From a virus: a stretch of DNA of 50,839 nt. This document shows, piece after piece, positions 54 through 50,839 of the stretch (positions within the stretch are counted from its first letter, which is position 1; each line of letters opens with the position of its first letter). Made by a program: the position numbers and the translations under genes. A model generated the notes under the pieces. It saw only the letters and a program-made list of their open reading frames with translations. It ran no database searches and was not told where the DNA came from. The stretch lies in IMG/VR virus record IMGVR_UViG_3300018063_000018, positions 1-50,839 of that record. One strand, written 5' to 3'.

Positions 54-596
54 TTACCCCCAAACATTCCCCCCTAAATCCTGAAAATAAACCCCCCCTA
101 CCCATTTAAAAGCCTCCCCTCTTTCCTCCCAGTATCTATCAATCACTTTATAACATTCTTCCTCGGTGTAAAATCTTCCAAGATAAATATCTTGGCTTTG
201 ATTTCTTACTCTCCACAGCTGTTTTCTTCTGTGAGCTTCGCTATGGTCATAAAAAACACTGAACCCTTTGTATCCTTTGTAGTTTTCTTTATTTTGGTTT
301 TGTGTAAAACTATCAACATCTCTTAAATTTTCAACTTTATTATTTAAAGTATCCCTATCTATGTGGTCTATTTCAGAAGTAGGCCAATGTTTTTTACATA
401 GAAACCAAACAATGTGGTGTACTTTATAGTTTTTTCTTTGAATTTTTAATCTTCTTATAACTTTACCATCGGGTCTCTTACTAAATTCTCCAATATTATC
501 CTTCAGCGGCCCATTAATCCATCCCCGAGTGTCGTAACTATAATTCTCCCTAATATACTCCAGTATTTCTTTTGGAGGCACCACAATTTTAGTCAC
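54..596 (-). CDS. HNH homing-type endonuclease with AP2-like C-terminal domain
   Basis: The 180-aa product has an HNH core near residues 60-95 (VHHIVWFL, then EIDHIDRDTLNNKVENLRDV), the usual His-x-Asp-His with Asn pattern of free-standing phage HNH nucleases. The C-terminal part (GYKGFSVFYD, WRVRNQSQDIYLGRFYTEEE) resembles the AP2-type DNA-binding domain often paired with HNH_3 nucleases. Such enzymes cut DNA at a target site and spread by repair. The start is GTG at 594-596, which overlaps the stop of the preceding gene as GTGA, so it is probably translationally coupled. It is the last gene of the left minus-strand cluster. A second gene of the same type lies at 20273-20785 and shares the LVWFL/IVWFL, HH/DH and LGxFxTE features. 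Confidence 0.85.
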   Translation of the reverse strand: MTKIVVPPKEILEYIRENYSYDTRGWINGPLKDNIGEFSKRPDGKVIRRLKIQRKNYKVHHIVWFLCKKHWPTSEIDHIDRDTLNNKVENLRDVDSFTQNQNKENYKGYKGFSVFYDHSEAHRRKQLWRVRNQSQDIYLGRFYTEEECYKVIDRYWEERGEAFKWVGGVYFQDLGGNVWG

Positions 597-18039: not shown

Positions 18040-18859
18040 AATAGATGAGTGCAACGTTACTACTGCTAAATCTACGGATGAAATTATTGCAAATATAAAG
18101 GAAAATGTTAAACATAATTATTTTGAAGTTACAAATAGTGGCTTTTGGAGAGAGAGCGTACCAATTGCAATAGTTGGAGGTGGCCCATCTCTTAAATTAA
18201 CTATTAAAGAATTAAAGCAATATAATAAATTAACAGTCTTCGGGCCCTATAGACAGATTGTAGCTTGTGGCTCATCACATGATTATTTAATTGAAAATAA
18301 AATATACCCCAATATATGCGTAGTGTGTGATCCAGATGAGATAATGATTAATTATTTGCAAAAACCGTGTAGTGCAACTATTTATTTATTAGCCTCACAA
18401 TGTCATCCAAGTATATTTAAACATTTAGAAAAATATACCTCTTGTATTTGGCATGCAGGGGGTAATAATTTTGACATTTCTGAATTTGGCAATAGAGCAG
18501 TTATCGGTGGAGGCTGTACAGTTGGAACTAGAGCCATTTGCCTTGCACTTGGTATGGGCTTTAATAATTTACACCTTTTTGGCTTCGATACTTGTCTTGA
18601 TGAAAATTTTAAACACCATGCGTATGAATTTACTGACCCTGAAAAAGAAACAATAGGCAATATTACGGAGATTAGGCTAGGGGGGCCTGAAGGCAAAAAG
18701 TTTTACGTAGCTGGATACCACTTAGGACAGTTGTTTGATTTTCAAAAAATGTTGCGAATTTACGCGGATAGAATGCAAATTACAGTACACGGCGGTGGTT
18801 TATTAGCACATTTAATGGATTTAGCTAAAAAGGAATGTTTAAATGACAAAGAAAACTGA
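18032..18859 (+). CDS. DUF115 (MptE/Maf-like) protein 2
   Basis: This 275-aa paralogue keeps every block of the first copy in order: PIAIVGGGPSLKLTIKEL, IVACGSSHDYLIENKIYPN, CVVCDPDEIMINYLQ, GGCTVGTRAICLALGMGF, HLFGFDTCLDENFKHHAYEF and a final HGGGLLAHL. Conservation of all motifs suggests both copies are active and may have different acceptors or donor sugars. It overlaps the upstream gene by 8 bases and the downstream virion gene by 17, so it is embedded in the structural operon. A transferase role is inferred, as for its partner. Confidence 0.8.
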   Translation: MIKIDECNVTTAKSTDEIIANIKENVKHNYFEVTNSGFWRESVPIAIVGGGPSLKLTIKELKQYNKLTVFGPYRQIVACGSSHDYLIENKIYPNICVVCDPDEIMINYLQKPCSATIYLLASQCHPSIFKHLEKYTSCIWHAGGNNFDISEFGNRAVIGGGCTVGTRAICLALGMGFNNLHLFGFDTCLDENFKHHAYEFTDPEKETIGNITEIRLGGPEGKKFYVAGYHLGQLFDFQKMLRIYADRMQITVHGGGLLAHLMDLAKKECLNDKEN

Positions 18860-19268
18860 TTTAATGGGCCTAGGGATGCAGCCATTTATGGCTGATCTAC
18901 TTGGTGATACGCCTACGTTATTTACAGCCGTGGGTACAGTTGTTGGAAGTGCGGCACAGATTCCAGGTACTCAGTTTACTACTATCGTTAATACTGGAAC
19001 TAGCGCCGTAAAGCTTCCTAAAATAGGCGGTGAAGGCCCGGCAGGTGGCGGGCAGCTGGGTAGTGAATATAGAGTTGTAAATCTTAGTGCTGCAATTATT
19101 AGTGTGTTTGCAGCTAATAATGATTTAGGTAGTGTTGTTACTTTTTTTGGTAGCTTAGTATCTATAGCGGGTACAACTGGATTGAGTGTAGAAAGAGGTA
19201 GAACTCTTATTAGTTATCCGCTTACAGTGAGTACTTGGGCTGTACTCGGAAGTGCGAATACTAATTAA
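18843..19268 (+). CDS. Small virion protein, decoration-like
   Basis: The 141-aa product starts MTKKTDLMGLGMQPFMADLL and continues as a Gly/Ala/Val/Thr-rich beta domain (AVGTVVGSAAQIPGTQFTTI, LPKIGGEGPAGGG). Such short proteins after capsid genes in short-tailed phages are usually virion components. There is no signal peptide and no enzyme motif. It overlaps the second DUF115 gene by 17 bases and so is another possible acceptor for modification. Confidence 0.6.
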   Translation: MTKKTDLMGLGMQPFMADLLGDTPTLFTAVGTVVGSAAQIPGTQFTTIVNTGTSAVKLPKIGGEGPAGGGQLGSEYRVVNLSAAIISVFAANNDLGSVVTFFGSLVSIAGTTGLSVERGRTLISYPLTVSTWAVLGSANTN

Positions 19269-20272: not shown

Positions 20273-20785
20273 ATGCCGTCTAAAAGAGTAAAAGGCGCTG
20301 AGGCTAAAAATTCAGAAGAATTTAAAGAATATATATTAAAGACATTTCAAGTGAATATAGAAAAAGGGCTGGTTGAAGGCAAAGGACTTTATTATAAAGT
20401 TCATGTTGAAATAGCGTATAAAGCTAAAAGATCGGTGATATCATTATCCCATTTAGTTTGGTTTTTAACACATAAAAAATGGCCTAAAGATAAACACCAC
20501 ATTGATCATAAAGATGGAAATCCTTTAAACAATAGACCGGATAACTTAGATGAATTAACTATAGAGGAGCATACTAATAAAAAATATGGTGATAACATTG
20601 GGGTATCTAAATCATATAGAAAACAAGCAAAAGGTTGGGTTATAATAAGAAGAATTAAAGCAGATACAAAAAGTGGCGTTACTAGTATATATTTAGGAAC
20701 TTTTAAAACTGAAATTGAAGCAGATAATTTTGTGAAGGAATATAAAATATTTGCTAGAGATTACGATGCATTGGAAGATATATAA
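20273..20785 (+). CDS. HNH homing endonuclease inserted between tail genes
   Basis: The 170-aa product contains SLSHLVWFLTHKKWPKDKHH, IDHKDGNPLNNRPDNLDELT and a C-terminal AP2-like stretch (YLGTFKTEIEADNFVKEY). It starts at the first base after the adaptor stop and its stop overlaps the next start (TAATG), so it was inserted without disturbing tail genes. It resembles the HNH gene at 54-596. Lower GC and Lys-rich composition set it apart from its neighbours. Confidence 0.85.
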   Translation: MPSKRVKGAEAKNSEEFKEYILKTFQVNIEKGLVEGKGLYYKVHVEIAYKAKRSVISLSHLVWFLTHKKWPKDKHHIDHKDGNPLNNRPDNLDELTIEEHTNKKYGDNIGVSKSYRKQAKGWVIIRRIKADTKSGVTSIYLGTFKTEIEADNFVKEYKIFARDYDALEDI

Positions 20786-22482: not shown

Positions 22483-22911
22483 ATGAAATTTGTTAGTGGT
22501 AATTCTGAAGATGATATTGGTAAATGGCTTGCTAATTTTTACAAAGAAAATACAGGACTTAAGCTATACATGCCTTATTCTGCCATTGGAGCACATGATA
22601 ATTTTAACCTTATTGGTGTTGCGATATTTACTGATTATAATGGAAGTAATATAGAGCTACATGGCTACGGTCCAGGGTGTTTTACTAGAAAATCAATTAA
22701 ATATTTATTCAATTATGTTTTTAACGAATTAGGGTGTAACATACTACGGGCTAGACCATCTATTAAAAACAAAAAAGCAATACGTATGCTGTGTAAATTA
22801 GGTTTCAAAATTGAATGCAAATTAGACGATTACATTGATAAAAATGAAGATGCTATAATGTATAAATATAAAAGAAGCTGGGCAAAAAGGTGGATTAATG
22901 TCAGCACCTAA
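22483..22911 (+). CDS. GNAT-like acetyltransferase domain protein in tail module
   Basis: The 142-aa product ends in a typical GNAT segment: ARPSIKNKKAIRMLCKLGFK followed by a final strand, with a preceding helix (SIKYLFNYVFNELGCN). The acetyl-CoA loop (R/QxxGxG/A) is not obvious and is replaced by GPGCFTRKSIKY. Small GNAT-fold proteins often lie next to tail hub genes in podoviruses with unknown substrates. It overlaps the next gene by 14 bases. Confidence 0.65.
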   Translation: MKFVSGNSEDDIGKWLANFYKENTGLKLYMPYSAIGAHDNFNLIGVAIFTDYNGSNIELHGYGPGCFTRKSIKYLFNYVFNELGCNILRARPSIKNKKAIRMLCKLGFKIECKLDDYIDKNEDAIMYKYKRSWAKRWINVST

Positions 22912-24074: not shown

Positions 24075-26368
24075 TGCCCCTAACGGAACCTGGTTTAGGC
24101 CTATTAGGTCCTATAAATGCTCAAACTATGACGCCTGAAATGATTGCAATTTTAGAGAGTATTGGGATGCACCAAATTGGTGCTGGTCCTCGTGGCAGAG
24201 AAGATAAATTTACTCAGCCTGTAGGTCCTGAAGCGTTTCAAGCTATACATTGGACTCAAGGGGCAGCAGATGTGCTAAATGCTATAGCTGGGTCTCGCGC
24301 TATTCAAACTGCCGAAAGGTCTAGGCTTGGCATGAGAATGGGAGACTTAACTCCTCCACAGCGTAGATTACCACCTTCGAGAACTACTGTAACACCAACT
24401 CCTGATATAACAAACCCTAATTCTGCGCTAAGGCGTGGCGCGGTACAAGAAACGTCTGATAGGCCAATGGTGCATTTAGCTAGGGGTGAAGGAGAAGATT
24501 TAGGGCCGCAGGTAAAAATAGGTAAGACACGTAGAATTCCACCAGACAGGCAATTGATACCTGATACTATGGAGGATACTTTAGACCACCAATTGAGGAA
24601 CACACTGCTTAATGCGACTAGAGAAGTTAATGCCCCAGATTCATTAAACGAAGCTGCTAATGCATTACGTATTCCTGGACGTATTCTTTCTACACGTGAT
24701 ATTAATATACCAGGGGATTTAACAATACATGGTGATAGATTACGTACAGATGAACAAAATATTGAAACTTCTAATGTCTTGCCTGACTCAGGGGGGATGC
24801 GAGGATTTATACCCCCTGAAATGAGGGTTGGTGCTATTAATGAATTACAACCACCTGACATACAATCACCACCTACAGGGCATACAGGAGGCGATCAATT
24901 ACATACTGAAACGGGAACAACATTAGCACAAGGTACACCAGAATTACAATATGGTAGGGGGGAGGATAGGGATTTAGTCGATAGGTTTGCACGATCATTA
25001 CGTGAACCACCACCTATTGTTGAACAACCACCTAATGCACAAGCACCGCCACCTGCCCTAGAACAACTACTATCTACTATTCAACCACCTAATGCACAAG
25101 CACCGCTGCCCACTACTGATAGAACGGTGCATGGACTACCTGTGTATAGGAGAGGTCATTTTGATGCATTAGCTGATATTCCTCCCCCTATGCCTCATAT
25201 GTTTGGGCTATCTCCCGAGCAACAAATGATGCTTTCTAACTATAGAGAGCAAGATAGGCAGTTAGTTGTACAGTCTTTGACATATCAATGGACTCCGCAA
25301 TATACTGAAGTTCCCGGAGGGAGACAGTGGATAATTCCGCATACGGGGGAGCGGGGATATATACCTGTTCCTGTAGATAGTAGAGTACGTACTGCAACGG
25401 GGACAGAAGTAACGTCTAGAACTTTATTTGATCGTAATGGTAGGAGGCATACCTATATACTAGAGCCGGGTGACCCACCACCTAACGTAGTAACCGCGGA
25501 TAGGCAACCACCTAATACACAACAACCTCCCCCATCTACTGATTTACAGCCCCCTAATACGCAACAGCCCCCAGCCACTATTCAGCCACCACCTGGAATC
25601 CAATTACAGCAACCTCCCTCTGGAGAAACATTTCAAGATCGTGGTATGTTTCTCAGGGATAGGCAAATAGATGTTGAACAAGCTGGATTAAAAAAAGGCG
25701 CGGTTACTGGAAGTGATATTGCTTGGCAGTCGGTAACTCAAGCAGTTGTTAGAGGCGACGCAGCTAGGCATACACTTGCTATCATTAGTACATTACAAGA
25801 TGCCTTAAATCAACCCGGCGCTGATCGGATTATGTCTGGTCAATATGCACAACAATGGATGGAATTTCAGAGGACCGTAAACGGTGTATTTCAAGCCGCT
25901 GGAATGGGAACTCCATTTGACCAAAGTCAAGTAACTGTTGCCGAAGCCATAGAGAAATTAAATACATTTTTAGGCGGAGCCGCCGCTAGAGAACTAACAA
26001 ACAGGCCTACACAATTTGATTTTCAAACATTTTTAAGAGTTAATGCTGGGTTACAAACATCGCCTGAAGGTAGAAGATTAATAGCGCAAATACAAAGACA
26101 ATTTGCTGAACGTGACATAGAAATAAGCAATATGGCTTCTCAATTTGCCGAAAGACGTTCTAGAACAGGGAGTCCAGAAGGTTTTAATGCGCAAATGCAA
26201 GCTATTCATGATAGGCGCATGCAGACTTTGGTGCAAACAATAGTAGCTGGCGGTGGGCAATTGCCAGTTGGCACAGTATATAACGGCTATAGGTACAGAG
26301 GCGGACCTATTAGAGAATCTGGGAGTTGGGTTGAAGTTCCTGAATTAAGACGGGCAACACCAAGATAA
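24074..26368 (+). CDS. Large Pro-rich protein with helical C-terminus, putative ejection protein
   Basis: The 764-aa product has an N-terminal region (PEMIAILESIGMHQIGAGPR), a Pro/Gln-rich middle with several PPNAQAPPP and PPNTQQPP units (residues about 310-520), and a C-terminal helical domain (SDIAWQSVTQAVVRGDAARH, RLIAQIQRQFAERDIEISNM). Large low-complexity proteins in this location of podoviruses are usually ejected into the host envelope. No lytic transglycosylase motif is visible. Confidence 0.6.
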   Translation: MPLTEPGLGLLGPINAQTMTPEMIAILESIGMHQIGAGPRGREDKFTQPVGPEAFQAIHWTQGAADVLNAIAGSRAIQTAERSRLGMRMGDLTPPQRRLPPSRTTVTPTPDITNPNSALRRGAVQETSDRPMVHLARGEGEDLGPQVKIGKTRRIPPDRQLIPDTMEDTLDHQLRNTLLNATREVNAPDSLNEAANALRIPGRILSTRDINIPGDLTIHGDRLRTDEQNIETSNVLPDSGGMRGFIPPEMRVGAINELQPPDIQSPPTGHTGGDQLHTETGTTLAQGTPELQYGRGEDRDLVDRFARSLREPPPIVEQPPNAQAPPPALEQLLSTIQPPNAQAPLPTTDRTVHGLPVYRRGHFDALADIPPPMPHMFGLSPEQQMMLSNYREQDRQLVVQSLTYQWTPQYTEVPGGRQWIIPHTGERGYIPVPVDSRVRTATGTEVTSRTLFDRNGRRHTYILEPGDPPPNVVTADRQPPNTQQPPPSTDLQPPNTQQPPATIQPPPGIQLQQPPSGETFQDRGMFLRDRQIDVEQAGLKKGAVTGSDIAWQSVTQAVVRGDAARHTLAIISTLQDALNQPGADRIMSGQYAQQWMEFQRTVNGVFQAAGMGTPFDQSQVTVAEAIEKLNTFLGGAAARELTNRPTQFDFQTFLRVNAGLQTSPEGRRLIAQIQRQFAERDIEISNMASQFAERRSRTGSPEGFNAQMQAIHDRRMQTLVQTIVAGGGQLPVGTVYNGYRYRGGPIRESGSWVEVPELRRATPR

Positions 26369-33239: not shown

Positions 33240-33560
33240 ATGGCACAGCAGCATCAAACACACCAAACCCCAGATGAACTACCGAGGATAGCGACAAGGC
33301 AAAATTACTACAGTAGAGATTACATTAGAAATGAAAAATCTGCGGCCACTAGTTCAATAGAATTATTGTGGCCATGCGCTAGTTGGTTTATAGTAATAGT
33401 TAACGCCGCTATTTGTAGCATGGCTGCGTACGATATGTATAAAAACGGATACGCTTGGTACTACCACTATTCCCTAGTTATTGCTTTTTGTTTAAATTTA
33501 GCTATTTTAGCAATTATATATAAGTATATCATCAATCCAAAAGAAAATAATGATGTTTGA
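33240..33560 (+). CDS. Holin-like protein with two membrane helices
   Basis: The 106-aa product has a charged N-terminus and two hydrophobic helices: WPCASWFIVIVNAAICSMAA (about residues 43-62) and YSLVIAFCLNLAILAIIYKY (about 76-95), with a charged tail (INPKENNDV). Size and topology fit class II holins, and it lies in the lysis module. Holins control the timing of membrane permeabilisation. It shares 11 bases with the next gene. The assignment is by topology only. Confidence 0.55.
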   Translation: MAQQHQTHQTPDELPRIATRQNYYSRDYIRNEKSAATSSIELLWPCASWFIVIVNAAICSMAAYDMYKNGYAWYYHYSLVIAFCLNLAILAIIYKYIINPKENNDV

Positions 33561-33837
33561 TACTACAATTAGTCTAGGCACTGTATTGCAAACTATAGCA
33601 CTACTTGGTAGTGCCGCGTATTTTATTTGGAGTTTAAGGACTAGTTTGGCGGTAATGGATACCAAACAAGCCACAGCGCTTGAAAAAATAATTAAAATAG
33701 AGACTGAATTAGATAAACTCACTGAGGTTATTATAGAGCAAGCTAAGCATAGCCAAAGGCTAGATAATTTTGAAACTAGGATGCAAGAATTTTCTTCTAA
33801 AATTTATAATGGTGTTTCTAAGCGGGTTAGAAAATAA
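33550..33837 (+). CDS. Small membrane-anchored coiled-coil lysis-module protein
   Basis: The 95-aa product starts FDTTISLGTVLQTIALLGSA with one transmembrane helix to about residue 28, followed by a long coiled coil (KIIKIETELDKLTEVIIEQA). This layout is common in phage and prophage proteins near endolysin and holin genes; some are holin regulators. It is the last gene of the late plus-strand block and ends one base before the convergent minus-strand gene. Confidence 0.6.
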   Translation: MMFDTTISLGTVLQTIALLGSAAYFIWSLRTSLAVMDTKQATALEKIIKIETELDKLTEVIIEQAKHSQRLDNFETRMQEFSSKIYNGVSKRVRK

Positions 33838-33838
33838 T

Positions 33839-34270
33839 TTACGTACCATCTCTCTTATATGTATGCTGACACACTTTAAATCCAAACTTAGTAAACAAAG
33901 CTATTGATGCAACATTATTGGGGTTTATATTGGCAATAAGGTCTATTTTGTGGTAATTAGCCATAACAAAACTAATTGCTTTTTTAGCGTATCCACGTCT
34001 ACGAAATTCTTCAAATATTTGAATACCTATTTCATTTTTACTGGTTAAGTATAGCTGCCCTACACACGTATCTGCGCTGTATATAAGCCACCATTCTCTA
34101 TGTGGCTTATTATTCACATATAAAACATGGTCTAGATACGAAGGCATCTTTTTGTGAGAGATGTTTTCGGTTTTTTCACGTTCCTCTAGAAGTCTATAGA
34201 GTAGCCAGTAAGCTTCGTTACAGCCATAAACACTTTTGTAGTATTCTTTTCCAGAGAATTGAACAGCCAT
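33839..34270 (-). CDS. GNAT acetyltransferase, candidate PseH-like
   Basis: The 143-aa product has a GNAT acetyl-CoA motif EEFRRRGYAKKAISFVMAN near residues 88-106 and NPNNVASIALFTKFGFK before the end, the classic GNAT pair. The pseudaminic acid pathway needs an N-acetyltransferase (PseH/SpsD) that acetylates the 4-amino sugar nucleotide made by PseB and PseC. Being the last gene of the operon that holds those enzymes, it is a fair candidate, but GNAT substrates cannot be read from sequence. It abuts the HAD-like gene with a one-base overlap. Confidence 0.7.
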   Translation of the reverse strand: MAVQFSGKEYYKSVYGCNEAYWLLYRLLEEREKTENISHKKMPSYLDHVLYVNNKPHREWWLIYSADTCVGQLYLTSKNEIGIQIFEEFRRRGYAKKAISFVMANYHKIDLIANINPNNVASIALFTKFGFKVCQHTYKRDGT

Positions 34271-34707
34271 TATTTTTTATTCCATGGTTTAAATGCGTTT
34301 ATTTCTTCAAAACTTGGAAACGTGCCTGTAAATAGCATTGCTCTGTCGTCTATACTTAAAAATGCAGATGGTTTTGTAAGTGGGAAATGATTCCAATATT
34401 CATTATGGTCTTTAGATAGTAAATTACAACAACTTCTCAATTTATTTCCAATACCTGCCCCAACTTCCCACCCATATTCTTTAATAAACCAAAATCTAAG
34501 ATAATTCTGCATTGCTCGTATTCCGCCGTCTTGATTATTACGGCTTGAATATATTTTTAATTCATAATCTGTACTCTCCAAAATAGATTTAATAAAAACC
34601 AATGCTCTTGGTACAGGTGGATCGGGTATAAAATCAGCTTCTAACCACTGTGACGTGTAGGAATGTATCACACCATCAAAATCTAAAGAGATTACTTTTT
34701 TATACAT
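34270..34707 (-). CDS. HAD-like hydrolase
   Basis: The 145-aa product begins VISLDFDGVIHSYTSQW, with the DxD catalytic motif, and continues with KIYSSRNNQ (motif II) and SAFLSIDDRAM near residue 120 (motif IV). This is a compact HAD fold with little cap, as in many phage-encoded phosphatases. Its substrate is unknown. In the operon it might act on a phosphorylated sugar. It does not resemble PseG, which is a GT-B fold protein. Confidence 0.75.
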   Translation of the reverse strand: MYKKVISLDFDGVIHSYTSQWLEADFIPDPPVPRALVFIKSILESTDYELKIYSSRNNQDGGIRAMQNYLRFWFIKEYGWEVGAGIGNKLRSCCNLLSKDHNEYWNHFPLTKPSAFLSIDDRAMLFTGTFPSFEEINAFKPWNKK

Positions 34708-34721
34708 CTTTAATTTACCTT

Positions 34722-35348
34722 TTAATGGGTTTTTTCAAATAAAAACCAACTAAGGTTGTCCAACCCCGACATTCGTTTCCACAAAAACCCATAGCCTACG
34801 CATCTAAGTGGAAACCATTTTAGGTATAAGCTCCCAAAATCATTGGACCACAGTATATTATTTTCCCCTCTATAACTTAATTCTCTACATTCTGGGCTGA
34901 AATATTCTATACACAATATATATTTTCTAGTTACCCTATACATCTCGGCCATAGCTTGATTTAATTGATCTGGCCGTACATGTATTAATACGCCACAAGT
35001 AAAACTTAGATCAAATTTACCATTAGTGGCCTCTATTTTAAATATATCCTGCTCTACTATCTTAGTATGTTGTATCCTTTTAAGATAATTCTTAGCTTTA
35101 TCGTTTGGCTCTATGGCAGTTAATTTTACTTCTCTTTGTATATTATTGTATAGATTAGCTATAGATATTAAATTTGCGCCAATCCCCGCACCAACTTCTA
35201 ATATTTTATTTGGGAGATCGTGGGCAATATGCATAAATATACCATTCCACATCATCATACGCTGTTGTATATTTATATCGTCTGATAAATTCCTATCAGT
35301 GTATTCATCGCCGAACTGACCTTTCCATTTGCCAAGCTGTTCTGTCAT
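34722..35348 (-). CDS. SAM methyltransferase of the pseudaminic-acid-associated type
   Basis: The 208-aa product starts EQLGKWKGQFGDEYTDRNLS, which matches the WxGxFGDEYxxRN opening of the pseudaminic acid biosynthesis-associated methylase family. Motif I is ILEVGAGIGANLISIANL near 49-66, followed by AIEPNDKAKNYL and EQDIFKIE. The C-terminal part is aromatic (FLWKRMSGLDNLSWFLF). It probably transfers a methyl group to the nonulosonate or a precursor. It overlaps the cytidylyltransferase gene by ATGA. The family match strengthens the reading of the whole operon as pseudaminate-like. Confidence 0.8.
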   Translation of the reverse strand: MTEQLGKWKGQFGDEYTDRNLSDDINIQQRMMMWNGIFMHIAHDLPNKILEVGAGIGANLISIANLYNNIQREVKLTAIEPNDKAKNYLKRIQHTKIVEQDIFKIEATNGKFDLSFTCGVLIHVRPDQLNQAMAEMYRVTRKYILCIEYFSPECRELSYRGENNILWSNDFGSLYLKWFPLRCVGYGFLWKRMSGLDNLSWFLFEKTH

Positions 35349-36163
35349 TTACTAATCACCAACTTTGGTTTCTTTTTATTGATTATTTTTTCTAGCCGTT
35401 CTATATCTTCGGGGTAATCTACACATAAATTTTGAGATGATTTATCTCGTTTTTGTCGAACTAGGGCTTTTTTAATCTCAGGTTCGTTTTGCATCCAAGA
35501 TGTGACATGTTCCTGATCATATTTAGCTTTTTCCTGATCATATTTAGCTTTATCTCTAAACATATGGGCCCCTAATATTTCGCCTTTGTTTTTATCTCTT
35601 TGTTCAATTGAAAATTTATTGGCTTCCTCCATTACTTTCACATATGCAGCTTGCAAACAATCAAATGTAAAACACTCACAATCCAATCCCCTTGGAAATG
35701 TTCTTTTTGGGTGTATATTACTTGTATAATCACATTTACGCCAAATATGTAAATCCAATACTTCAGTGCATATAACTGGATTAATTAAAGGACAATCTGC
35801 TGTTATACGCATTATATGGTTTAATTTAAAAAACTGTGCTGCGTGGTAGTATCTCTCTAGTACATTATCTTCTGAGCCACAAAAATTCTCTACCCCTAGC
35901 TTAGTTGCTAAATTAATTAATGGTTCACTTTCATTTGTATCTGGCGCAACTACAATTATTAATTTATTAAATTTAAGGCTTATCTTTATATCTTTGCATC
36001 TTTCTATTACATGCTGCAACACAGGCTTCCCAGCTAGCAGGGCCATGCTTTTTCCAGGGAAGCGCTTGGACCCCATGCGGGCCTGGGCCACGATGCCCAC
36101 TAGAGGCCTGCTGGCATGGCTGGGAGCCTTGCCAGCAGGCAGGATGAGTATGTTGCTACCCAT
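35345..36163 (-). CDS. SpsF-type cytidylyltransferase (candidate CMP-nonulosonate synthetase)
   Basis: The 272-aa product has VGIVAQARMGSKRFPGKSM near residues 22-40, the nucleotide-binding loop of the NeuA/SpsF cytidylyltransferases, followed by GKPVLQHVIERC, RITADCPLI and RTFPRGLDCECF, diagnostic of SpsF. It would activate the sugar acid as its CMP derivative. The first 20 residues are an unusual extension. A 21-bp tandem duplication (35511-35551) repeats AKYDQEK before VTSWMQN. The 5' end (about 36025-36163) is much richer in GC than the rest. Its start overlaps the HisF-like gene. Confidence 0.8.
   Translation of the reverse strand: MGSNILILPAGKAPSHASRPLVGIVAQARMGSKRFPGKSMALLAGKPVLQHVIERCKDIKISLKFNKLIIVVAPDTNESEPLINLATKLGVENFCGSEDNVLERYYHAAQFFKLNHIMRITADCPLINPVICTEVLDLHIWRKCDYTSNIHPKRTFPRGLDCECFTFDCLQAAYVKVMEEANKFSIEQRDKNKGEILGAHMFRDKAKYDQEKAKYDQEHVTSWMQNEPEIKKALVRQKRDKSSQNLCVDYPEDIERLEKIINKKKPKLVISK
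35511..35551 (-). repeat. 21-bp tandem duplication in the SpsF-like gene
   Basis: Two near-perfect copies offset by 21 bases, encoding KAKYDQE twice. The frame is kept. Confidence 0.85.
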
Positions 36164-36890
36164 GTAGCCTCACAAGCACCCCTGCCTCGTGGAGAGCCTT
36201 GGCGCAAGATTTTGGAGTGTGAGAACTAAAGAGGAACATGGAAGATGCTGCTACGGCGGATACACCTGCTTTGATTGCTTCTACCATATGATCGGGATGC
36301 CCGCAACCACCGTTAATAATAATAGGTATAGATAAAGATTTACAATATTTTAGCGGGAATAAATCATATCCACTCTGTGTTCCATTTTTGCGGATAGCAG
36401 TTAGTAATACTTCCCCCAATCCTATTTTTTGTAAAGTAGATAAATTATCTATTACGGGCTTTAATAGTACTATGCAATTTGGTACGTAGTCTACATTAAA
36501 ATCTACAACTCCAACTACAGCTTGAGAACCATATTTATTAATAGTACTGCTTATTGATGTTTTTCCTCCTGCTTTTATAGCTACCTTATCCACCCCGCAT
36601 CTTTGTATCAACTCATTTACATGGTCTAGCGTTTTAATTCCACCACCATATGTAACAGGGCAAAACAGTTCATTACATACTTCTTTGATTACATCAAAAT
36701 CGGGCCCACGATTTTCTTGCGTTGCATCTATATCTAAAAGAATTAACTCATCTATATTTCGTGACTCCATAACTTCAATATGTTGCATTAAACTACCACA
36801 ATTGCGGTATGGACGCTTGAATTGTGTAGTTTGCACAACTTGAAGTTGCTTGTTGAACATTAATACAGGTATGATGCGGTGTTTAAGCAT
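36156..36890 (-). CDS. WbuZ/HisF-like cyclase-type subunit
   Basis: The 244-aa product is a TIM-barrel protein of the HisF family: HRIIPVLMFNKQLQVVQTTQ at the start, ELILLDIDATQENRGPDFDV, CPVTYGGGIKTLDHVNELIQ, and a phosphate-binding end INGGCGHPDHMVEAIKAGV. Histidine HisF has an aspartate at position 11; here it is replaced, as in the WbuZ-type partners of N-acetyl-sugar amidotransferases. Those work with a WbuX/PseA-like enzyme (37576-38715) and usually with a HisH-like glutaminase to supply ammonia. No HisH homologue is in the window. Phage genomes rarely carry this family. Confidence 0.8.
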   Translation of the reverse strand: MLKHRIIPVLMFNKQLQVVQTTQFKRPYRNCGSLMQHIEVMESRNIDELILLDIDATQENRGPDFDVIKEVCNELFCPVTYGGGIKTLDHVNELIQRCGVDKVAIKAGGKTSISSTINKYGSQAVVGVVDFNVDYVPNCIVLLKPVIDNLSTLQKIGLGEVLLTAIRKNGTQSGYDLFPLKYCKSLSIPIIINGGCGHPDHMVEAIKAGVSAVAASSMFLFSSHTPKSCAKALHEAGVLVRLHG

Positions 36891-37104
36891 TTAAATTATC
36901 TAAATTATCGTCACCTTGGATCAGCATTTGCATATCCAGCTCTGTTTTGCTCATTTGTCTTATTTTTGTGGTGATTGTTATATGGGGGTAATTAAGCCTT
37001 TTGATTTCTTCAATAAGTTCTTCTATGTGCTCCTTCATTTTACTTTCAATATTGTTTTCATCAAGATTTATTATATGGTGTTTGATTTCGATAACTCTAG
37101 ACAT
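36883..37104 (-). CDS. Small operon protein, paralogue A (73 aa)
   Basis: Helix plus strand pattern: IEIKHHIINLDENNIESKMK, EHIEELIEEIKRLNYPHITI and MSKTELDMQMLIQG. It aligns along its length with the 66-aa gene upstream (37116-37316), including spacing of the first strand, long helix and final QxQxxIxG. No known family. It overlaps the HisF-like gene by 8 bases. A structural or regulatory role in the operon is possible. Confidence 0.65.
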   Translation of the reverse strand: MSRVIEIKHHIINLDENNIESKMKEHIEELIEEIKRLNYPHITITTKIRQMSKTELDMQMLIQGDDNLDNLNA

Positions 37105-37115
37105 TTATATCTCCA

Positions 37116-37316
37116 CTAATAACCGCTTATCATAGATTGAATCTGTATTTCTCTGTCGCTAGGTCTTGATACTCTAGTGTGTATTTTTATAACACCTAAT
37201 TTTAAAAATTTAATAGCCTCAATAACTTTTTTATTGTGTTCTTCTAATTTTTGTTCAATATTTTCTGCGGTTACATTTACTATAATGCTTTTTATGTTGA
37301 TATCCTGTTCTGACAT
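37116..37316 (-). CDS. Small operon protein, paralogue B (66 aa)
   Basis: Begins MSEQDINIKSIIVNVTAENI and has EQKLEEHNKKVIEAIKFLKL, then REIQIQSMISGY. It is clearly related to paralogue A (IVNVTAENIEQKLEEH compared with IINLDENNIESKMKEH). The duplication lies within an operon that is otherwise enzymatic. No function can be assigned. Confidence 0.65.
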   Translation of the reverse strand: MSEQDINIKSIIVNVTAENIEQKLEEHNKKVIEAIKFLKLGVIKIHTRVSRPSDREIQIQSMISGY

Positions 37317-37328
37317 TTCATAACTCCA

Positions 37329-37544
37329 TTAAATCAATCCAAATTCTTTTCGCCTATCTATTTTTTCGTGTGGACAATATATTTCTTGTTTTTGAATAGC
37401 CTCTTCTAAGTAATCAATGATCTCTTCTGTATTTTTACAATGCAGTGACCCAGAAATTATTATACCAACCGCATTGGGTGTAAATATACATTCTTTTGGG
37501 TGGTTTCTGATGACCATTTCTACTACTTCTCTTATATTTACCAT
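37329..37544 (-). CDS. Small hypothetical protein (71 aa)
   Basis: MVNIREVVEMVIRNHPKECI, then NTEEIIDYLEEAIQKQEIYC and a basic end. Two Cys residues (Cys19 and Cys38-type spacing, plus CPHEK near the end) could be structural. No family recognised. It lies between the amidotransferase and the paralogue pair. Confidence 0.55.
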   Translation of the reverse strand: MVNIREVVEMVIRNHPKECIFTPNAVGIIISGSLHCKNTEEIIDYLEEAIQKQEIYCPHEKIDRRKEFGLI

Positions 37545-37575
37545 GGCGTTTCACACCTGCATTTTTCTATCCACT

Positions 37576-38715
37576 TTATATACTCATTGGATGTTTTTTT
37601 AATTTTGGTCTCGGATTGTTTTTTAATCTTGGTTCAAATACAGCCTTATTTGTAAACTTATCCGCTATCACCATAAATTCATCAATAGTCATACCTATGT
37701 TTGTAAGAATATCCTCTAAAGATTTTCCCAAATAGGTACTTGGAAACTTTCCGTCATACATCCACACGGATTCTTTACCTTCTTCTCTTGTAATATAACC
37801 CCTGCGAATATGATTACAGGCAATGTCAGTAGCCCTACCAAAACCGAACTTAAGCCACTTAAAATAATCGTGTATTCCGGTTTGATGATTGTCAAGATTT
37901 TCATAATTTACGCCTGTTCCTTCAACATCAGTATGATAAACTTCAAAACCATGTCTTTGAGCTAGTTCTGCGTTGTATTTCCCATCCCACGGGAAATAGT
38001 AGCCTAGAAATATATTTTTAGTATTAAAAATCCCAGCTTGCCCCGCTAAATCCCTATTTGGCATTATATATTGGTATAATTCTTTTTCCGTAGCTATTTC
38101 TTTTTCAATTAAATCGCTTACTCTTAATCCATTTAATCCACCAAACTCTTGTAACCAAGAAATTTTCATCTCAGATTTATCTTCTTCGGGCCCTCCGTAT
38201 TCATTTTGTGGATTTTCACCCCATATAACTAAAGGTATGTTCCTTATAATAGCTTCTCTAATTGGTATAGTGAAAATAGCGACATGTTCAGCCCAAGAAA
38301 TATCGCCAATAACATGAAGAGTATAATTGTTGATTTTTCTCCTGAGCGCGGAGTTGGTAGATATTTCAATGTGATCAACACCTAATTTGCCAATATTATT
38401 AAGATTACGCCTACCGATAGTAGATAGATCATCCGTTGTAGCGGTGACAGCCAATGGAGTAAGCCCATACTCTAGTGCCTTTATAATTTGGAAGTGAGAA
38501 TCTTTACCACCACTTACTGGAACTATGCAATCATAGTTACTATTATGTATTTGATACCTACGTTCACTAACTAAATTGCGAAATTCTTTTTCTCTTTTCC
38601 GCCAGTCAATATCTTTTCTATTCTCAAACGATACGCAAGCGTTGCATACTCCTTCTTCGTTTATTATAAGATCGGGTTTGGTATTTGGATATACACAACG
38701 CTTGCAGAAATTCAT
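37576..38715 (-). CDS. N-acetyl sugar amidotransferase (WbuX/PseA-like)
   Basis: The 379-aa product has two CxxC pairs (Cys4/Cys7 and Cys24/Cys27, likely zinc-binding) and a PP-loop ATP site SGGKDS at residues 68-73, followed by LVIWGENPQNEYGG and YYFPWDGKYNAELA. These are hallmarks of the WbuX/WbpG/PseA family, which converts a sugar N-acetyl group to an acetamidino group using ATP and ammonia. PseA acts in the formation of acetamidino pseudaminic acid in Campylobacter. With the WbuZ-like gene nearby, acetamidino modification of the phage sugar is likely. The glutaminase subunit is missing and may come from the host. Confidence 0.88.
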   Translation of the reverse strand: MNFCKRCVYPNTKPDLIINEEGVCNACVSFENRKDIDWRKREKEFRNLVSERRYQIHNSNYDCIVPVSGGKDSHFQIIKALEYGLTPLAVTATTDDLSTIGRRNLNNIGKLGVDHIEISTNSALRRKINNYTLHVIGDISWAEHVAIFTIPIREAIIRNIPLVIWGENPQNEYGGPEEDKSEMKISWLQEFGGLNGLRVSDLIEKEIATEKELYQYIMPNRDLAGQAGIFNTKNIFLGYYFPWDGKYNAELAQRHGFEVYHTDVEGTGVNYENLDNHQTGIHDYFKWLKFGFGRATDIACNHIRRGYITREEGKESVWMYDGKFPSTYLGKSLEDILTNIGMTIDEFMVIADKFTNKAVFEPRLKNNPRPKLKKHPMSI

Positions 38716-38921
38716 GGTTGATTGCCCTCATTTTTCATTCCACTAGGTGTTTTACTGTCAACAATCTTAAACAAAGAATTTATTGCAATAGTAGCAATTT
38801 CGATAGCACCCCCTGTTTCTATAATAGTATCTATAGTTTCGTATCGTTTTTTTCTAAGATAATCGGCAATAGCTCCACTTATAATTAAAACATCGTTTTG
38901 AGACATTTCTTCTTTATTCAT
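38712..38921 (-). CDS. Small hypothetical protein (69 aa)
   Basis: MNKEEMSQNDVLIISGAIAD, then YLRKKRYETIDTIIETGGAI and IATIAINSLFKIVDS. Mostly helical. It overlaps its neighbours on both sides by a few bases, so it is coupled to the amidotransferase. No family recognised. Confidence 0.6.
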   Translation of the reverse strand: MNKEEMSQNDVLIISGAIADYLRKKRYETIDTIIETGGAIEIATIAINSLFKIVDSKTPSGMKNEGNQP

Positions 38922-39253
38922 TAATTTAACTCCTCTTTAGTTGGTTTACTCACCGCAGATGGCGGCTGTACAGGTGTTTGTGTTTGCATCTCTATAAATT
39001 TATTAATATGGTTTTGAAGCGTAAACAATCCCGCGCCTGTTAATACAATAGTAGCTTGAATATTTATGCAATCAATTTCTTCAACTGGTTGGTCTGCAAA
39101 TGATAACCTTACTGATCCATCCCTACCCGCCCAGATAAAAAATCTATTAGAATATTGTGGTGACTCACATGCTAGTTGGTATTTAGTCTCACCTGCTAGT
39201 TGGTATTTAATGTTGCCATCTTCAGTAATCCCAGGTTTTACTTCGTCTTCCAT
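38921..39253 (-). CDS. Hypothetical protein, possibly DUF3467-like (110 aa)
   Basis: I chose the ATG at 39253 (MEDEVKPGITEDGN) because GGAGCATATAGT precedes it; a longer frame reaches into the upstream gene. The core YSNRFFIWAGRDGSVRLSFA and the following helix (GLFTLQNHINKFIEMQ) resemble DUF3467 proteins, whose function is unknown. A 24-bp tandem duplication near 39170-39209 gives two copies of KYQLAxEx. It overlaps the PseI-like gene by 16 bases. Confidence 0.55.
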   Translation of the reverse strand: MEDEVKPGITEDGNIKYQLAGETKYQLACESPQYSNRFFIWAGRDGSVRLSFADQPVEEIDCINIQATIVLTGAGLFTLQNHINKFIEMQTQTPVQPPSAVSKPTKEELN

Positions 39254-40260
39254 ACTATATGCTCCTCTTTTAACGCAGTACCTATTGCTAAGTCGCAACT
39301 TGCATATTGGTCAATAGTATCAAATAATTTATTTGGATCAAGGCCGTATCCAGGTCTTATACTTCTTATACTTTCTTTTGTGAATTTTTCTCCTTGTTTT
39401 ACGTCTTTTACTACATATAGTGATCGTTTGAATTGCCTGTCTGGTTCTTCCTTATATATTTCTAAAGCTTTAATTGTATCGTGACAATCATTTACAAATC
39501 TTCTAAATTCTTTTGGCCTCAGAGAAAATTTAGAGTCTTCTGAAGTCTCTGTAAGAGTTAAATGTTTCTCTATTACTGTGGCGCCTAAAGTTATAGCAAG
39601 TTGTGCTGCTGTAGATGTAAGAGTATGATCGCTAAATCCAACATCTTTATATAGTTCTTGATAGGCTAATATTTTATTAAGTTGCAGTTCATTGATTTTG
39701 GCTGGGTATTTACTAATACAATGCATAACCAATGGGTATGCGCTATTCTCCACACTTATAATATCAATTGCTCTGTCTACTTCATCCTGAGTCGCTACCC
39801 CCGTGGATAAAACCATTGGTTTACCAATTTTAGCCACCGTTCTAATTAAATAAGTGTCATTTAATTCAAAACTAGCTATTTTATAAGCTGGGCAATCAAC
39901 CGCTTCAAGTGCTGCTAGCGACTGTTCACCAAAGACTGACGCAAACATAGGAATTTTTGAAAATTTAGCATACTCAAATAAGTATGGTATCCATTGTAGT
40001 GGCGTATATGTTTTATTATACAATTCCCACAATGTATTGCCGTTCCATGGGCCACCTTTTATTTTAAAATCTACAGAAGCTGAATTGATCGTCATTTCAT
40101 CTGGAATATAGGCTTGTATCTTTACAGCGTCCGCACCTGCATCCTTAGCGGCATTGATTAATAGGTAGGCTTTGTCTATCGATTGTTCGTGGTTGCAGCT
40201 AATCTCGGCTATTATCGATATATATTTGTGTGGAATTAATTTTTTACCGAGGAAAATCAT
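39238..40260 (-). CDS. pseI: Pseudaminic acid synthase-like protein (NeuB family)
   Basis: The 340-aa product has the NeuB opening IAEISCNHEQSIDKAYLLIN (Glu19, Asn23, His24), DAVKIQAY, WNGNTLWELYNKTYTPLQW, a feature of PseI-type rather than NeuB1-type synthases, ASFELNDTYLI, GFSDHTLT, ATVIEKHLTL and SKFSLRPKEF. The last 60 residues form an SAF domain (RSLYVVKDVKQGEKFTKESI). It condenses phosphoenolpyruvate with a 2,4-diacetamido-trideoxy sugar to form a nine-carbon acid. Length matches the family. It is the clearest sign that the operon makes a nonulosonic acid. Confidence 0.9.
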   Translation of the reverse strand: MIFLGKKLIPHKYISIIAEISCNHEQSIDKAYLLINAAKDAGADAVKIQAYIPDEMTINSASVDFKIKGGPWNGNTLWELYNKTYTPLQWIPYLFEYAKFSKIPMFASVFGEQSLAALEAVDCPAYKIASFELNDTYLIRTVAKIGKPMVLSTGVATQDEVDRAIDIISVENSAYPLVMHCISKYPAKINELQLNKILAYQELYKDVGFSDHTLTSTAAQLAITLGATVIEKHLTLTETSEDSKFSLRPKEFRRFVNDCHDTIKALEIYKEEPDRQFKRSLYVVKDVKQGEKFTKESIRSIRPGYGLDPNKLFDTIDQYASCDLAIGTALKEEHIVWKTK

Positions 40261-40505
40261 TTCTTTTTCTTCCCCAGCCCCATTAGATCATTTACTTGTT
40301 GTTTGAGTAATAAAATTTCTTTTTGTTGATTTTTATTCATTTCTTTAAGTTGCTTTATATCTTCTTGTAGTTGTGTGCATATTAGTTCACATTTTTTCCA
40401 CTTTTTTTCCAATAAATCAAAGCGTACTTCTAAATCTACATATTTATTTAATAGATCATCATATTTTTTATCAAGTAAATCATATTTTTCTTTAGTGATG
40501 CTCAT
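40257..40505 (-). CDS. Coiled-coil protein (82 aa)
   Basis: The product is an almost continuous coiled coil (YDLLDKKYDDLLNKYVDLEV, KKWKKCELICTQLQEDIKQL) ending in a basic run (GKKKK). It overlaps both the PseI-like and PseC-like genes by ATGA. No specific function is recognised. It may organise or scaffold the operon enzymes; this is only a possibility. Confidence 0.65.
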   Translation of the reverse strand: MSITKEKYDLLDKKYDDLLNKYVDLEVRFDLLEKKWKKCELICTQLQEDIKQLKEMNKNQQKEILLLKQQVNDLMGLGKKKK

Positions 40506-41137
40506 TTAAATATCTCCATCTGCGACAAATCAGGATAATCATCGTTAGGTAAATCGGGGTTATGTTTGGGAAGGTGGCTAAGACGCACCAATCCGTTTGC
40601 TGCTACACTTGGTAGCATGAGCATATCATAACCTATGATAGGCTGATCGTCTCGAGGATGCACCCCTTCGCTCCTACCATGGTGGCGAACCTTTCGAAAC
40701 CATTTATCAGATTCGGGATCGTTATGCAAGATACATCCGCCTCGCTCGATGCCTAATATTTTTGCCCAATGGTGTGATGTACACATAAAATAATGGTTAT
40801 CTAAAGTGTTGCTATTGTACAAATCTTTAAACATGTTAGATGTAAATCTACGAGCACAATCATAAATATTTAGCGGGGATAGGGGGTACATTCCTTTCCA
40901 CTCTATATCTTTAAATACGAATTCAAAACCAACAAGTTTTATTTGCTGGGGCACACTTAAATAAGTTCTTTTCGGAATAACAAATTTGCCCCCGGTAATT
41001 ATTTTAGCTACTTTAGCCCACATTAAACATAAAAACAACGCATTCGTGCAGCTACTAACAGCCACTACATGTGGCGCTCCTGTATATTCAGCTACAGATT
41101 CTTCGAAGTCTTTAATTACTTGATATGGGTTTTTCAT
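40502..41137 (-). CDS. Half-size DegT/PseC-like aminotransferase
   Basis: The 211-aa product follows the DegT/DnrJ order: FEESVAEYTGAPHVVAVSSC, TNALFLCL, VIPKRTYLSVPQQIKLVG, IYDCARRF (Asp93 fits the pyridoxal ring partner) and SHHWAKILGIERGG, where Lys126 fits the Schiff-base lysine (SFHPxK in relatives). It then ends after YDMLMLPSVAANGLVRLSHL, so the roughly 110-170 C-terminal residues of normal 370-380-aa enzymes are absent. PseC transfers an amino group to C4 of the PseB product. Retained key residues argue for activity. It overlaps neighbours by ATGA on both sides. Confidence 0.75.
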   Translation of the reverse strand: MKNPYQVIKDFEESVAEYTGAPHVVAVSSCTNALFLCLMWAKVAKIITGGKFVIPKRTYLSVPQQIKLVGFEFVFKDIEWKGMYPLSPLNIYDCARRFTSNMFKDLYNSNTLDNHYFMCTSHHWAKILGIERGGCILHNDPESDKWFRKVRHHGRSEGVHPRDDQPIIGYDMLMLPSVAANGLVRLSHLPKHNPDLPNDDYPDLSQMEIFK

Positions 41138-42060
41138 GTAGAACCTCTAACATCATTATTCCCGTAAACATAATCTCTCAAATCAGCCACAGTATACCAT
41201 TTATCATTTTCATTGGAAAATGTATCTTCATTTATTTGTTCATGTAGCTTTTCCCCAGGCCTTATTCCAATTATCTTTATGTTTTTATCTTCTTCATACG
41301 GCAATAATATTTGTTTATAGTGTGTAAAGGCTCTTGCCAAATCTATAACATTGAAACTAGGCATTGTAGGTATAAATACTTCTCCACCATTCATTTTTCT
41401 AACTGACTCAATTACAAATTTAACAGCGCTTTCAAGTGTTATCCAAAAACGTGTCATTTTTGGATCAGTAATGGTTATTGGTAACCCCTTTGAGATTTGT
41501 TCTTTAAAAACTTGTATTACACTACCATTCGAATCTGCCACGTTTCCATATCGAACGACGCTGAACTTAGGCCCGGATTCACCGTGTATATTATTTGCCG
41601 TTAAAATCATTTTCTCCATAACTAATTTAGTAGCTCCATATAAATTAATAGGGGAAACTGCTTTATCTGTTGAAAGAGCTATAACTTTAATGTAACTTCC
41701 TTTATTCCAAGCACTCAAGCAACAATCAATTAAATTTTGTGAGCCTAGTATGTTTGTTTTTATATATTCTGTTGGATTGTATTCAGCGTTTGGTACTCTT
41801 TTAAGAGCAGCTGCATGGATTATGTAGTGAGCATCTGATATTGCTAATTGTAGTCTATCTTTATCCCTTACGCACCCTATTAAATACCTCATTCTTTCAT
41901 CACTATCTAGCAATTTGTATTTTCTTTCCATTTGTTCTTGTTTTAATTCATCACGACTAAAAATGATAATTTTACCACCAAACTTGTTGTTTTTAAGCTC
42001 GTATTCTGTAAAAGCTTGCCCAAAACTTCCAGTTCCACCTGTGATTAATATATTAGTCAT
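41134..42060 (-). CDS. pseB: UDP-GlcNAc 4,6-dehydratase, PseB-like
   Basis: The 308-aa product is an SDR-fold sugar-nucleotide dehydratase: GGTGSFG at residues 8-14 binds NAD(P), IFSRDELKQ follows, and the catalytic set is Thr131-Asp132-Lys133 (STDKA) with Tyr141 and Lys145 (YGATK). The blocks LKRVPNAEYNPTEYIKTN and VVRYGNVADSNGSVIQVF and TDPKMTRFWI are typical of PseB, which dehydrates and epimerises UDP-GlcNAc as the first step to pseudaminic acid. Length fits (about 330 in bacteria). It follows the Cro-like gene by 11 bases. Confidence 0.88.
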   Translation of the reverse strand: MTNILITGGTGSFGQAFTEYELKNNKFGGKIIIFSRDELKQEQMERKYKLLDSDERMRYLIGCVRDKDRLQLAISDAHYIIHAAALKRVPNAEYNPTEYIKTNILGSQNLIDCCLSAWNKGSYIKVIALSTDKAVSPINLYGATKLVMEKMILTANNIHGESGPKFSVVRYGNVADSNGSVIQVFKEQISKGLPITITDPKMTRFWITLESAVKFVIESVRKMNGGEVFIPTMPSFNVIDLARAFTHYKQILLPYEEDKNIKIIGIRPGEKLHEQINEDTFSNENDKWYTVADLRDYVYGNNDVRGST

Positions 42061-42071
42061 TTATATTCATC

Positions 42072-42263
42072 CTAATCATCTGGGTACCAATGCTTCCTTG
42101 AAACTTCTCCCCCAGTAATCTGCTCTATGCGCCGAGCCATTTTGTAGCTCGGAGTTCTTTTTCCAGATACTATTTGGCTGATCCATTGAGGAGCGCAGGG
42201 AATTAATCTAGCTACGATGCTGCAATTTATATTATTACTTTCTATATATTTTTTTAAATTCAT
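42072..42263 (-). CDS. Cro/YdaS-like HTH regulator
   Basis: The 63-aa product starting MNLKKYIESNNINCSIVARL carries a helix-turn-helix: IVARLIPCAPQWISQIVSGK followed by RTPSYKMARRIEQITGGEVS, closely matching Cro/YdaS-like phage repressors. It is the first gene of the sugar operon, 11 bases before the PseB-like gene. A 20-bp near-perfect inverted repeat lies 18 bases upstream of its start and carries a TATAAT, so it probably binds there and controls itself and the operon. I chose the ATG start over an earlier TTG. Confidence 0.8.
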   Translation of the reverse strand: MNLKKYIESNNINCSIVARLIPCAPQWISQIVSGKRTPSYKMARRIEQITGGEVSRKHWYPDD

Positions 42264-42280
42264 CTGTATGTACAACTAAT

Positions 42281-48488: not shown

Positions 48489-48506
48489 TTGCACTCTCTT
48501 TTTTAG

Positions 48507-48581
48507 TGGCCCCGGTTGGATTTGAACCAACGATCAATCCGTTATGAGCGGATGGCTTTTACCAGGCTAAGCTACGGGGCT
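48507..48581 (-). tRNA. tRNA with CAT anticodon (Met or lysidine-type Ile)
   Basis: The 75-nt gene folds as a cloverleaf: acceptor AGCCCCG/CGGGGCC with a first-pair A-C mismatch, D-stem GCTT/AAGC, anticodon stem ATCCG/CGGAT with loop CTCATAA, and T-stem GTTGG/CCAAC with TTCAAAT. The CCA end is not encoded. The open first pair recalls initiator tRNAs, but the three G-C pairs of initiators are absent. It lies directly before the deoxyribosyltransferase-like gene. Confidence 0.85.
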
Positions 48582-49347: not shown

Positions 49348-49435
49348 TGGTGCGCTCAGCCGGACTCGAACCGACATGGCGTTTACCGCCTCCAGATTTT
49401 AAGTCTGGTGTGTCTACCGATTTCACCATGAGCGC
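49348..49435 (-). tRNA. tRNA-Leu (TAA)
   Basis: The 88-nt gene has acceptor GCGCTCA/TGAGCGC, anticodon stem CCAGA/TCTGG with loop CTTAAAA (anticodon TAA), a long variable arm (GGCGGTAAACGCC) as in class II leucine tRNAs, T-loop TTCGAGT and an encoded CCA. TTA codons are common in the AT-rich genes of this genome, so it would help their translation. Confidence 0.95.
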
Positions 49436-50591: not shown

Positions 50592-50839
50592 TCATGATGC
50601 ATTCATTTCAGGAGCGCGGATGCGATTGCATTCTGTCAAAGCCGTAGCGATGACGCGACTGTATTCTGCCCAAGCCGAATCGCGGATGCGACTGTATTCT
50701 GCCCAAGCCGAATCGCGGATGCGACTGTATTCTGCCCAAGCCGAATCGCGGATGCGACTGTATTCTACCCAAGCCGTAGCGCATCTGCGATTGTATTCTG
50801 CCAAAGCCGTAGCGATGACGCGATTGTATTCTGCCAAAG
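50592..50839 (-). CDS. 11-residue tandem-repeat protein, cut by the right edge
   Basis: The frame is open to the window edge and its true start lies outside. It encodes seven or more units of the pattern AEYSRIRDSAW / AEYNRVIATAL and ends ECNRIRAPEMNAS. Units are 33 bp, three of them nearly identical (50642-50760). Proteins with AEYxRVxxxAW-type 11-mer repeats occur in many phages with no known role. The last motif also appears in the 36-aa gene at 1714-1824 at the opposite end. Confidence 0.7.
   Translation of the reverse strand, partial: LAEYNRVIATALAEYNRRCATAWVEYSRIRDSAWAEYSRIRDSAWAEYSRIRDSAWAEYSRVIATALTECNRIRAPEMNAS
50611..50839 (-). repeat. 33-bp tandem repeat array (about 7 units)
   Basis: Units alternate between a gaatcgcggatgcgactgta-type and a gccgtagcgatgacgcga-type sequence; the three central units are almost identical. 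The array is coding and continues beyond the window. Confidence 0.9.

Follow-up and report, generated by a model that had tools for sequence, protein, structure and literature searches.

Nonulosonic acids are known as cell-surface sugars, and the closest described pathway to the one considered here is that by which Campylobacter and Helicobacter make Pse5Ac7Am for their flagellin (PseB-C-H-G-I-F together with PseA), which likewise has an acetamidino-forming amidotransferase and PF01973 transferases. Maf proteins O-glycosylate flagellin on Ser/Thr with nonulosonates (PMC11339370). Glycosylation of phage particles has been described for mycobacteriophages (Freeman et al. 2023, cited in PMC12619734), whose capsid and tail proteins are modified by glycosyltransferases of the phage itself; no nonulosonate pathway is described in that case. 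Our literature search, which left most subscription papers outside its coverage, turned up no description of a pseudaminate or nonulosonate pathway in a phage. Here we describe an operon of eight enzymes, all encoded leftward (minus strand) at positions 33839-42060 of the IMG/VR virus record IMGVR_UViG_3300018063_000018; the record is classed as linear and was analysed over its whole 50,839 bases (hereafter, the window). From the identity of its genes, we consider it likely that this phage encodes a pathway for a cytidine monophosphate (CMP)-activated, pseudaminic-acid-like sugar, which is probably acetamidino- and methyl-modified.

The enzyme families and their inferred order are those of the Campylobacter/Helicobacter pathway. 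The phage version differs from it in having a half-size aminotransferase and an SpsF- rather than a PseF-type synthetase, in lacking PseG and HisH, and in that the genes lie in phages next to virion genes. It is novel as a phage system, and its component enzyme families are already known. On balance we favour a phage-borne system that glycosylates phage particles with a nonulosonic acid. This reading draws on gene identity, gene order, recurrence, key residues, two protein folds and the placement of putative transferases, from which we infer the chemistry, the addition of acetamidino and methyl groups to the sugar, and the virion as its target.

The operon and its predicted pathway

The proteins of the window were searched against the NCBIfam and Pfam profiles, with scores judged against curated cut-offs. 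This confirmed, in place and strand, the genes that a first-pass annotation of this DNA had named. The eight enzymes are as follows.

41134-42060, minus strand: PseB-type UDP-N-acetylglucosamine (UDP-GlcNAc) 4,6-dehydratase with inverting signature (TIGR03589, 354.7 bits)
40502-41137, minus strand: half-size DegT/PseC-like, pyridoxal phosphate (PLP)-dependent sugar aminotransferase, 211 amino acids (Pfam DegT, E 9.3e-21)
39238-40260, minus strand: PseI (pseudaminic acid synthase) with SAF domain (TIGR03586, 353.9 bits, cut-off 340.25)
37576-38715, minus strand: WbuX/PseA N-acetyl sugar amidotransferase (TIGR03573, 309.3 bits, cut-off 203.2)
36156-36890, minus strand: WbuZ/HisF-like ammonia-channelling partner (TIGR03572, E 4.6e-52)
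35345-36163, minus strand: SpsF-like CMP-sugar synthetase (Pfam CTP_transf_3, E 1.3e-20; ARMGSKRFPGK motif)
34722-35348, minus strand: pseudaminate-associated methylase (TIGR03587, 149 bits, cut-off 112)
33839-34270, minus strand: GNAT acetyltransferase with a putative PseH-like role (Pfam Acetyltransf_3, E 2.6e-8)

PseB was the best NCBIfam model for the dehydratase-like protein, which clearly belongs to this family, but the score falls below the equivalog cut-off of 407.75; the best PDB match was the UDP-GlcNAc C6 dehydratase 2gn4 (E 3e-79). Residues D132, K133 and Y141 are kept in 65/65 phage PseB homologues, at the same positions as in the solved inverting enzyme from H. pylori; here we assume the residue numbering of H. 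pylori PseB and the Tyr/Met rule taken to separate inverting from retaining enzymes. The PseI-like protein matched the pseudaminic acid synthase 8h2c (E 9e-73), and the combination of these PseB residues with PseI, rather than NeuB, as the best model indicates a sugar of the pseudaminate type. The SGGKDS motif and four Cys residues are conserved in the WbuX-like protein, which matched 8wex in the PDB. WbuZ was the best model for its partner, yet with 176.7 bits against a cut-off of 299.7. The CMP-sugar synthetase is of the SpsF type with conserved motifs and scores weakly as PseF. The GNAT protein exceeds three Pfam acetyltransferase cut-offs, has a homologue in every contig that carries all eight genes and gave no match to the PseH model in the NCBIfam search.

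The aminotransferase had been called a mini PseC; at 211 amino acids and 42.1 bits against the PseC model (cut-off 423.5), it falls far short of a full-length PseC. Across 51 aligned phage proteins the half-size form spans approximately 200-245 amino acids, compared with 385-386 in full-length bacterial relatives, and it is present in nearly all phage cassette contigs. Its AlphaFold model has a predicted local distance difference test (pLDDT) score of 95.4, and its Foldseek matches are DegT sugar aminotransferases, perosamine synthase, WbpE and ArnB among them. The catalytic K126 and the PLP Asp, D93, are invariant in 51/51 homologues, and K126 is aligned to a 9bgp lysine whose place is taken by alanine in 9bgr. 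Sequence and model together predict a sugar aminotransferase, which would have to act without the small domain. The cultured Flavobacterium phage immuto likewise has a half-size DegT protein of approximately 214 amino acids in a sugar cluster (L258, MW353176.1, 4986-5630), but this cluster is of a different kind, and the phage gave no WbuX or PseI match at the limit used.

In the pathway that we propose, PseB would convert UDP-GlcNAc to a 4-keto-6-deoxy sugar of the L-altro type, the half-size DegT enzyme would then aminate C4, and the GNAT protein would acetylate the C4 amine. Since the phage is without PseG, removal of UDP is assigned to a host enzyme or to slow hydrolysis, after which PseI would condense the sugar with phosphoenolpyruvate and SpsF would generate the CMP-sugar. 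WbuX and its WbuZ/HisF partner would convert an acetamido group to acetamidino, the ammonia having a source other than a phage glutaminase, and the methylase would add a methyl group, perhaps in the manner of PtmH. Maf-domain transferases, made with the head proteins, may then transfer the sugar onto Ser/Thr residues in a protein of the virion.

The first-pass annotation had described the operon as a full set, a claim which fails for two partners. PseG was found neither in 50 related records nor in the window with a model that detects it in control genomes, and a HisH-type glutaminase was likewise found in 0/50 related records and in 14/14 controls. The possibility that either gene is hidden elsewhere was rejected on these counts, and so the phage version of the pathway has lost, or never possessed, both. 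Loss of SpsG in Bacillus subtilis strongly reduces, but does not abolish, the legionaminic acid of the spore (PMC7439481), and a partial bypass of PseG is therefore conceivable. Among the proteins that such phages supply are a naturally half-size, PLP-dependent sugar aminotransferase (about 210 amino acids vs about 380), small Maf-like transferases and an amidotransferase system predicted to work without the usual glutaminase.

Phage origin and recurrence

The window carries terminase, portal, major head, tail, amidase and spanin genes on its plus strand and helicase and DNA polymerase genes on its minus strand, and the presence of terminase, portal, head, tail and lysis genes on one contig marks it as a tailed phage. 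A sister contig, G010, is 99.99% identical to the window across 1-22353 and extends beyond window base 1 until it reaches repeats of the window end (50611-50839), so that the genome is circular or permuted and about 62 kb in size. The extra part of G010 encodes a primase and a ribonucleotide reductase. That a bacterial operon was joined to a phage contig by an assembly artefact at about 33838, a concern raised from the outset, would fit the slightly lower G+C content of the operon. However, an independent relative (G011, portal 65% identical) has GNAT, methylase and SpsF genes directly beside a homologue of the gene at 33550-33837, and the set recurs on over 50 further viral contigs. A chimera was rejected because the window and G011 share the junction, and the artefact has a vanishingly small probability: the operon is real and phage-borne.

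Recurrence was assessed with cassette profiles for which six phages supplied the sequences, the partial G011 being added to three of the profiles. All eight genes were found on 54 distinct viral contigs, the window included, and 41 of these remain when a score above 100 bits is required of each gene. Dozens of the carriers are distant relatives of this uncultivated phage. Loci in which all eight exceed 40 bits number 71; their genes always share a strand and cover a median of 7.7 kb. In the viral contig scans the half-size aminotransferase was detected at 35 loci and WbuX at more than 100. Two gene orders predominate: PseB-DegT-SpsF-methylase-WbuX-HisF-GNAT-PseI occurs at 46 loci and that of the window, PseB-DegT-PseI-WbuX-HisF-SpsF-methylase-GNAT, at seven. 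The first-pass annotation had judged such a set very unusual in a phage, which holds for catalogued phages (WbuX matched 0 of 50,697 records) but not for environmental viral contigs, where it is widespread; its proposal that the phage has its own pathway for a modified pseudaminate-like sugar is well supported by this recurrence. Any virome can be screened for the cassette, which makes a clear marker.

Bacterial counterparts were considered in the same way. Among 84,980 prokaryote genomes the half-size aminotransferase had a single occurrence, in a Thiobacillaceae metagenome-assembled genome, where its 9-kb contig carries PseB-DegT-SpsF-methylase. In a WbuX tree of 79 phage and 30 bacterial sequences, 78 of the phage sequences form one well-supported clade, with the window in a phage-only subclade. 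Strict phage-only monophyly fails, as three bacterial sequences nest within the phage clade; a fourth, L244, also falls there, but on a very long branch, and is probably wrongly placed. The nearest bacterial clusters in the tree, L254 and L255 (WbuX-HisH-HisF), lie on short contigs of Pseudomonadota genomes. Their WbuX and HisF proteins are highly similar to those of the phages (E about 1e-152 and 1e-90), and DegT and SpsF genes adjoin WbuX-HisF in both, as does PseI in L254. They differ in that DegT has 385-386 amino acids and HisH is present beside WbuX, and for these two reasons they do not represent the same operon on a host contig. A defence-system reading of the cassette was also tried and rejected, since PADLOC returned a generic methyltransferase match and nothing else. 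In several cassettes (e.g. L071, L072, L085 and L043) PseI has just 215-240 amino acids, with the C-terminal SAF/antifreeze-like domain apparently absent.

Putative transferases and the target of the sugar

The first-pass annotation overlooked the HAD-like and small open reading frames (ORFs) of the operon as well as two putative transferase genes, which are found with their neighbours in the virion module.

14685-15716, plus strand: major head protein (phrog_9953, E 1.8e-111), upstream of both PF01973 genes
16375-17283, plus strand: Maf-domain putative nonulosonate transferase 1 (PF01973, 75.6 bits, cut-off 34.6), kept in G011
18032-18859, plus strand: Maf-domain putative nonulosonate transferase 2 (PF01973, 91.8 bits, cut-off 34.6), kept in G011
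18843-19268, plus strand: small Ser/Thr-rich protein (21% Ser+Thr), adjoining transferase 2

Both PF01973 genes follow closely after the gene for the major head protein, within the head gene cluster, and transferase 2 has a weak PHROG match to an alpha-2,3-sialyltransferase (E 0.034). The phage proteins share PF01973, above its cut-off, with the Maf flagellin glycosyltransferases. With 275-302 amino acids they correspond approximately to the central domain of Maf (5mu5, which we take to be the Magnetospirillum Maf, has 666) and they differ in their location in a phage head module. The Ser/Thr-rich protein is a candidate acceptor by position only. In the nine window-like cassette phages in which PF01973 genes and a terminase were both found, the former are on the terminase strand, 6.6-15 kb downstream of it in eight; in the ninth, G021, the distance is approximately 10 kb if its ends join.

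Most other cassette phages have instead a protein of 250-300 amino acids whose predicted fold best matches that of the CMP-sialyltransferase CstII, usually encoded just upstream of the terminase. This family has no Pfam match. Its model has a pLDDT of 85.5, and the GT42 sialyltransferases CstI/CstII are its top PDB fold matches in Foldseek (E 4e-6, probability 1.00), CstII accounting for 12/13 of the best; with TM scores of just 0.38-0.45 and 13-16% identity, the likeness is one of predicted fold. A CstII-like gene is absent from the window itself, where the motif scan instead revealed the two PF01973 genes. The PF01973 domain of Maf has been reported to resemble CstII (PMC11339370), and so the solutions of both phage groups may be the same kind of transferase. 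A gene of one type or the other is present in 39/42 cassette-phage records (40 with the cassette itself, the sister G010 and the partial G011) compared with 0/8 portal relatives without the cassette (Fisher p 3e-7, uncorrected for kinship). Starting from the CstII-like gene, 29/32 loci with at least 6 kb upstream hold at least five cassette genes, a figure biased upwards since it derives from the best 80 of 334 matches and from a query drawn from cassettes.

Whether the sugar coats the virion, changes the host surface or blocks superinfection had been left open, and the Maf/CstII-type transferases in virion or terminase modules favour the first of these. It is mainly because the transferases occupy a late-module position that we prefer the virion, which we judge to be the somewhat more probable target. 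Placement on a surface structure of the host (O-antigen, capsule, pilus or flagellum) by host or phage Maf/CstII-like transferases, so as to block superinfection or alter adsorption, appears unlikely. CMP-nonulosonates do provide surface sugars in bacteria, phage genes alter a host surface in the O-acetylation of the A. baumannii capsule (PMC6586298), and about nine cassette phages have an integrase match, so that some may be temperate. However, no integrase was found in G010, the window and G010 carry a lytic-type replication set (DNA polymerase, primase and ribonucleotide reductase), and transferase genes that stand among head genes or beside the terminase are probably late genes. We consider it very unlikely that the cassette merely tops up or diverts an existing host sugar pathway, as auxiliary metabolism in which phage proteins transfer no sugar; the missing PseG and HisH seemingly call for host enzymes, but the cassette runs from the first step to CMP activation with both modifications and is accompanied by transferases, which is more than a top-up requires.

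Several observations weigh against glycosylation of the virion by the phage itself. Without PseG and HisH, the host or some further enzyme has to supply two of the customary steps, and the aminotransferase is half-size, with a predicted function. The 39/42 vs 0/8 contrast ignores kinship and most of the eight relatives are fragments, and the CstII-like gene occurs without the cassette in the viral contigs L188 and L191 and the cultured Microcystis phage Mvi-Yong1342-1. The acceptor is a candidate only; one shared beside the transferases of both groups was rejected, since profile comparison showed no homology between their small Ser/Thr-rich neighbours. In addition, PF01973 is named after, and takes in, the archaeal pterin kinase MptE, and one Foldseek match of the CstII-like protein is a thiamine pyrophosphokinase. 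The Maf/CstII-like proteins might accordingly have no connection with the cassette and be enzymes of a pterin or thiamine pyrophosphokinase kind, 8sd5 and 3lm8 being among the matches, but this seems quite improbable given the predominance of CstII among the fold matches and the distribution of the transferase-type genes between phages with and without the cassette. The wider proposal, that a widespread and hitherto undescribed kind of virus coats its own particles with a self-made sialic-acid-like sugar by means of a compacted pathway, a half-size aminotransferase and its own Maf/CstII-type transferases, with two groups using different transferase types for the same job, is in our view evenly poised. 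If true, a virion-dedicated pathway with its own transferases would turn the sugar coat of phage particles into a widespread trait open to testing, one that bears on their adsorption, stability, charge and recognition.

Other features of the cassettes and the phage genome

The operon holds several genes outside the conserved eight.

42072-42275, minus strand: Cro/helix-turn-helix-like regulator at the operon head
40257-40505, minus strand: small coiled-coil-like ORF (ORF only)
38712-39298: further small ORF
36883-37544: further small ORF
34270-34707, minus strand: HAD-like ORF (Pfam HAD_SAK_2, E 0.002; phrog_1238, E 7.8e-10)

The Cro-like gene proposed as operon head is present, but its helix-turn-helix matches are weak. 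Inside the cassettes of the group with CstII-like genes, usually after the aminotransferase, there is a conserved family of approximately 119 amino acids (L058:10675-11013 and relatives, 27 contigs) with no Pfam or PHROG match. The Microcystis phage L257 (PP496355.1), which has no cassette match, encodes a member of the CstII-like family beside its terminase genes (5905-6708), annotated as a type 11 methyltransferase.

Elsewhere in the genome, the tandem-like repeat at window 50611-50839 is found three times in G010 (24217-25296 and 33582-33794). Two related HNH endonuclease genes lie at window 54-596 (minus strand) and 20273-20785 (plus strand), the latter within the virion module, which also holds a second acetyltransferase-like gene (phrog_4470, 22483-22911). 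Genes for tRNA-Met (48506-48581) and tRNA-Leu (49348-49435), both on the minus strand, are situated amid the replication genes of the window.

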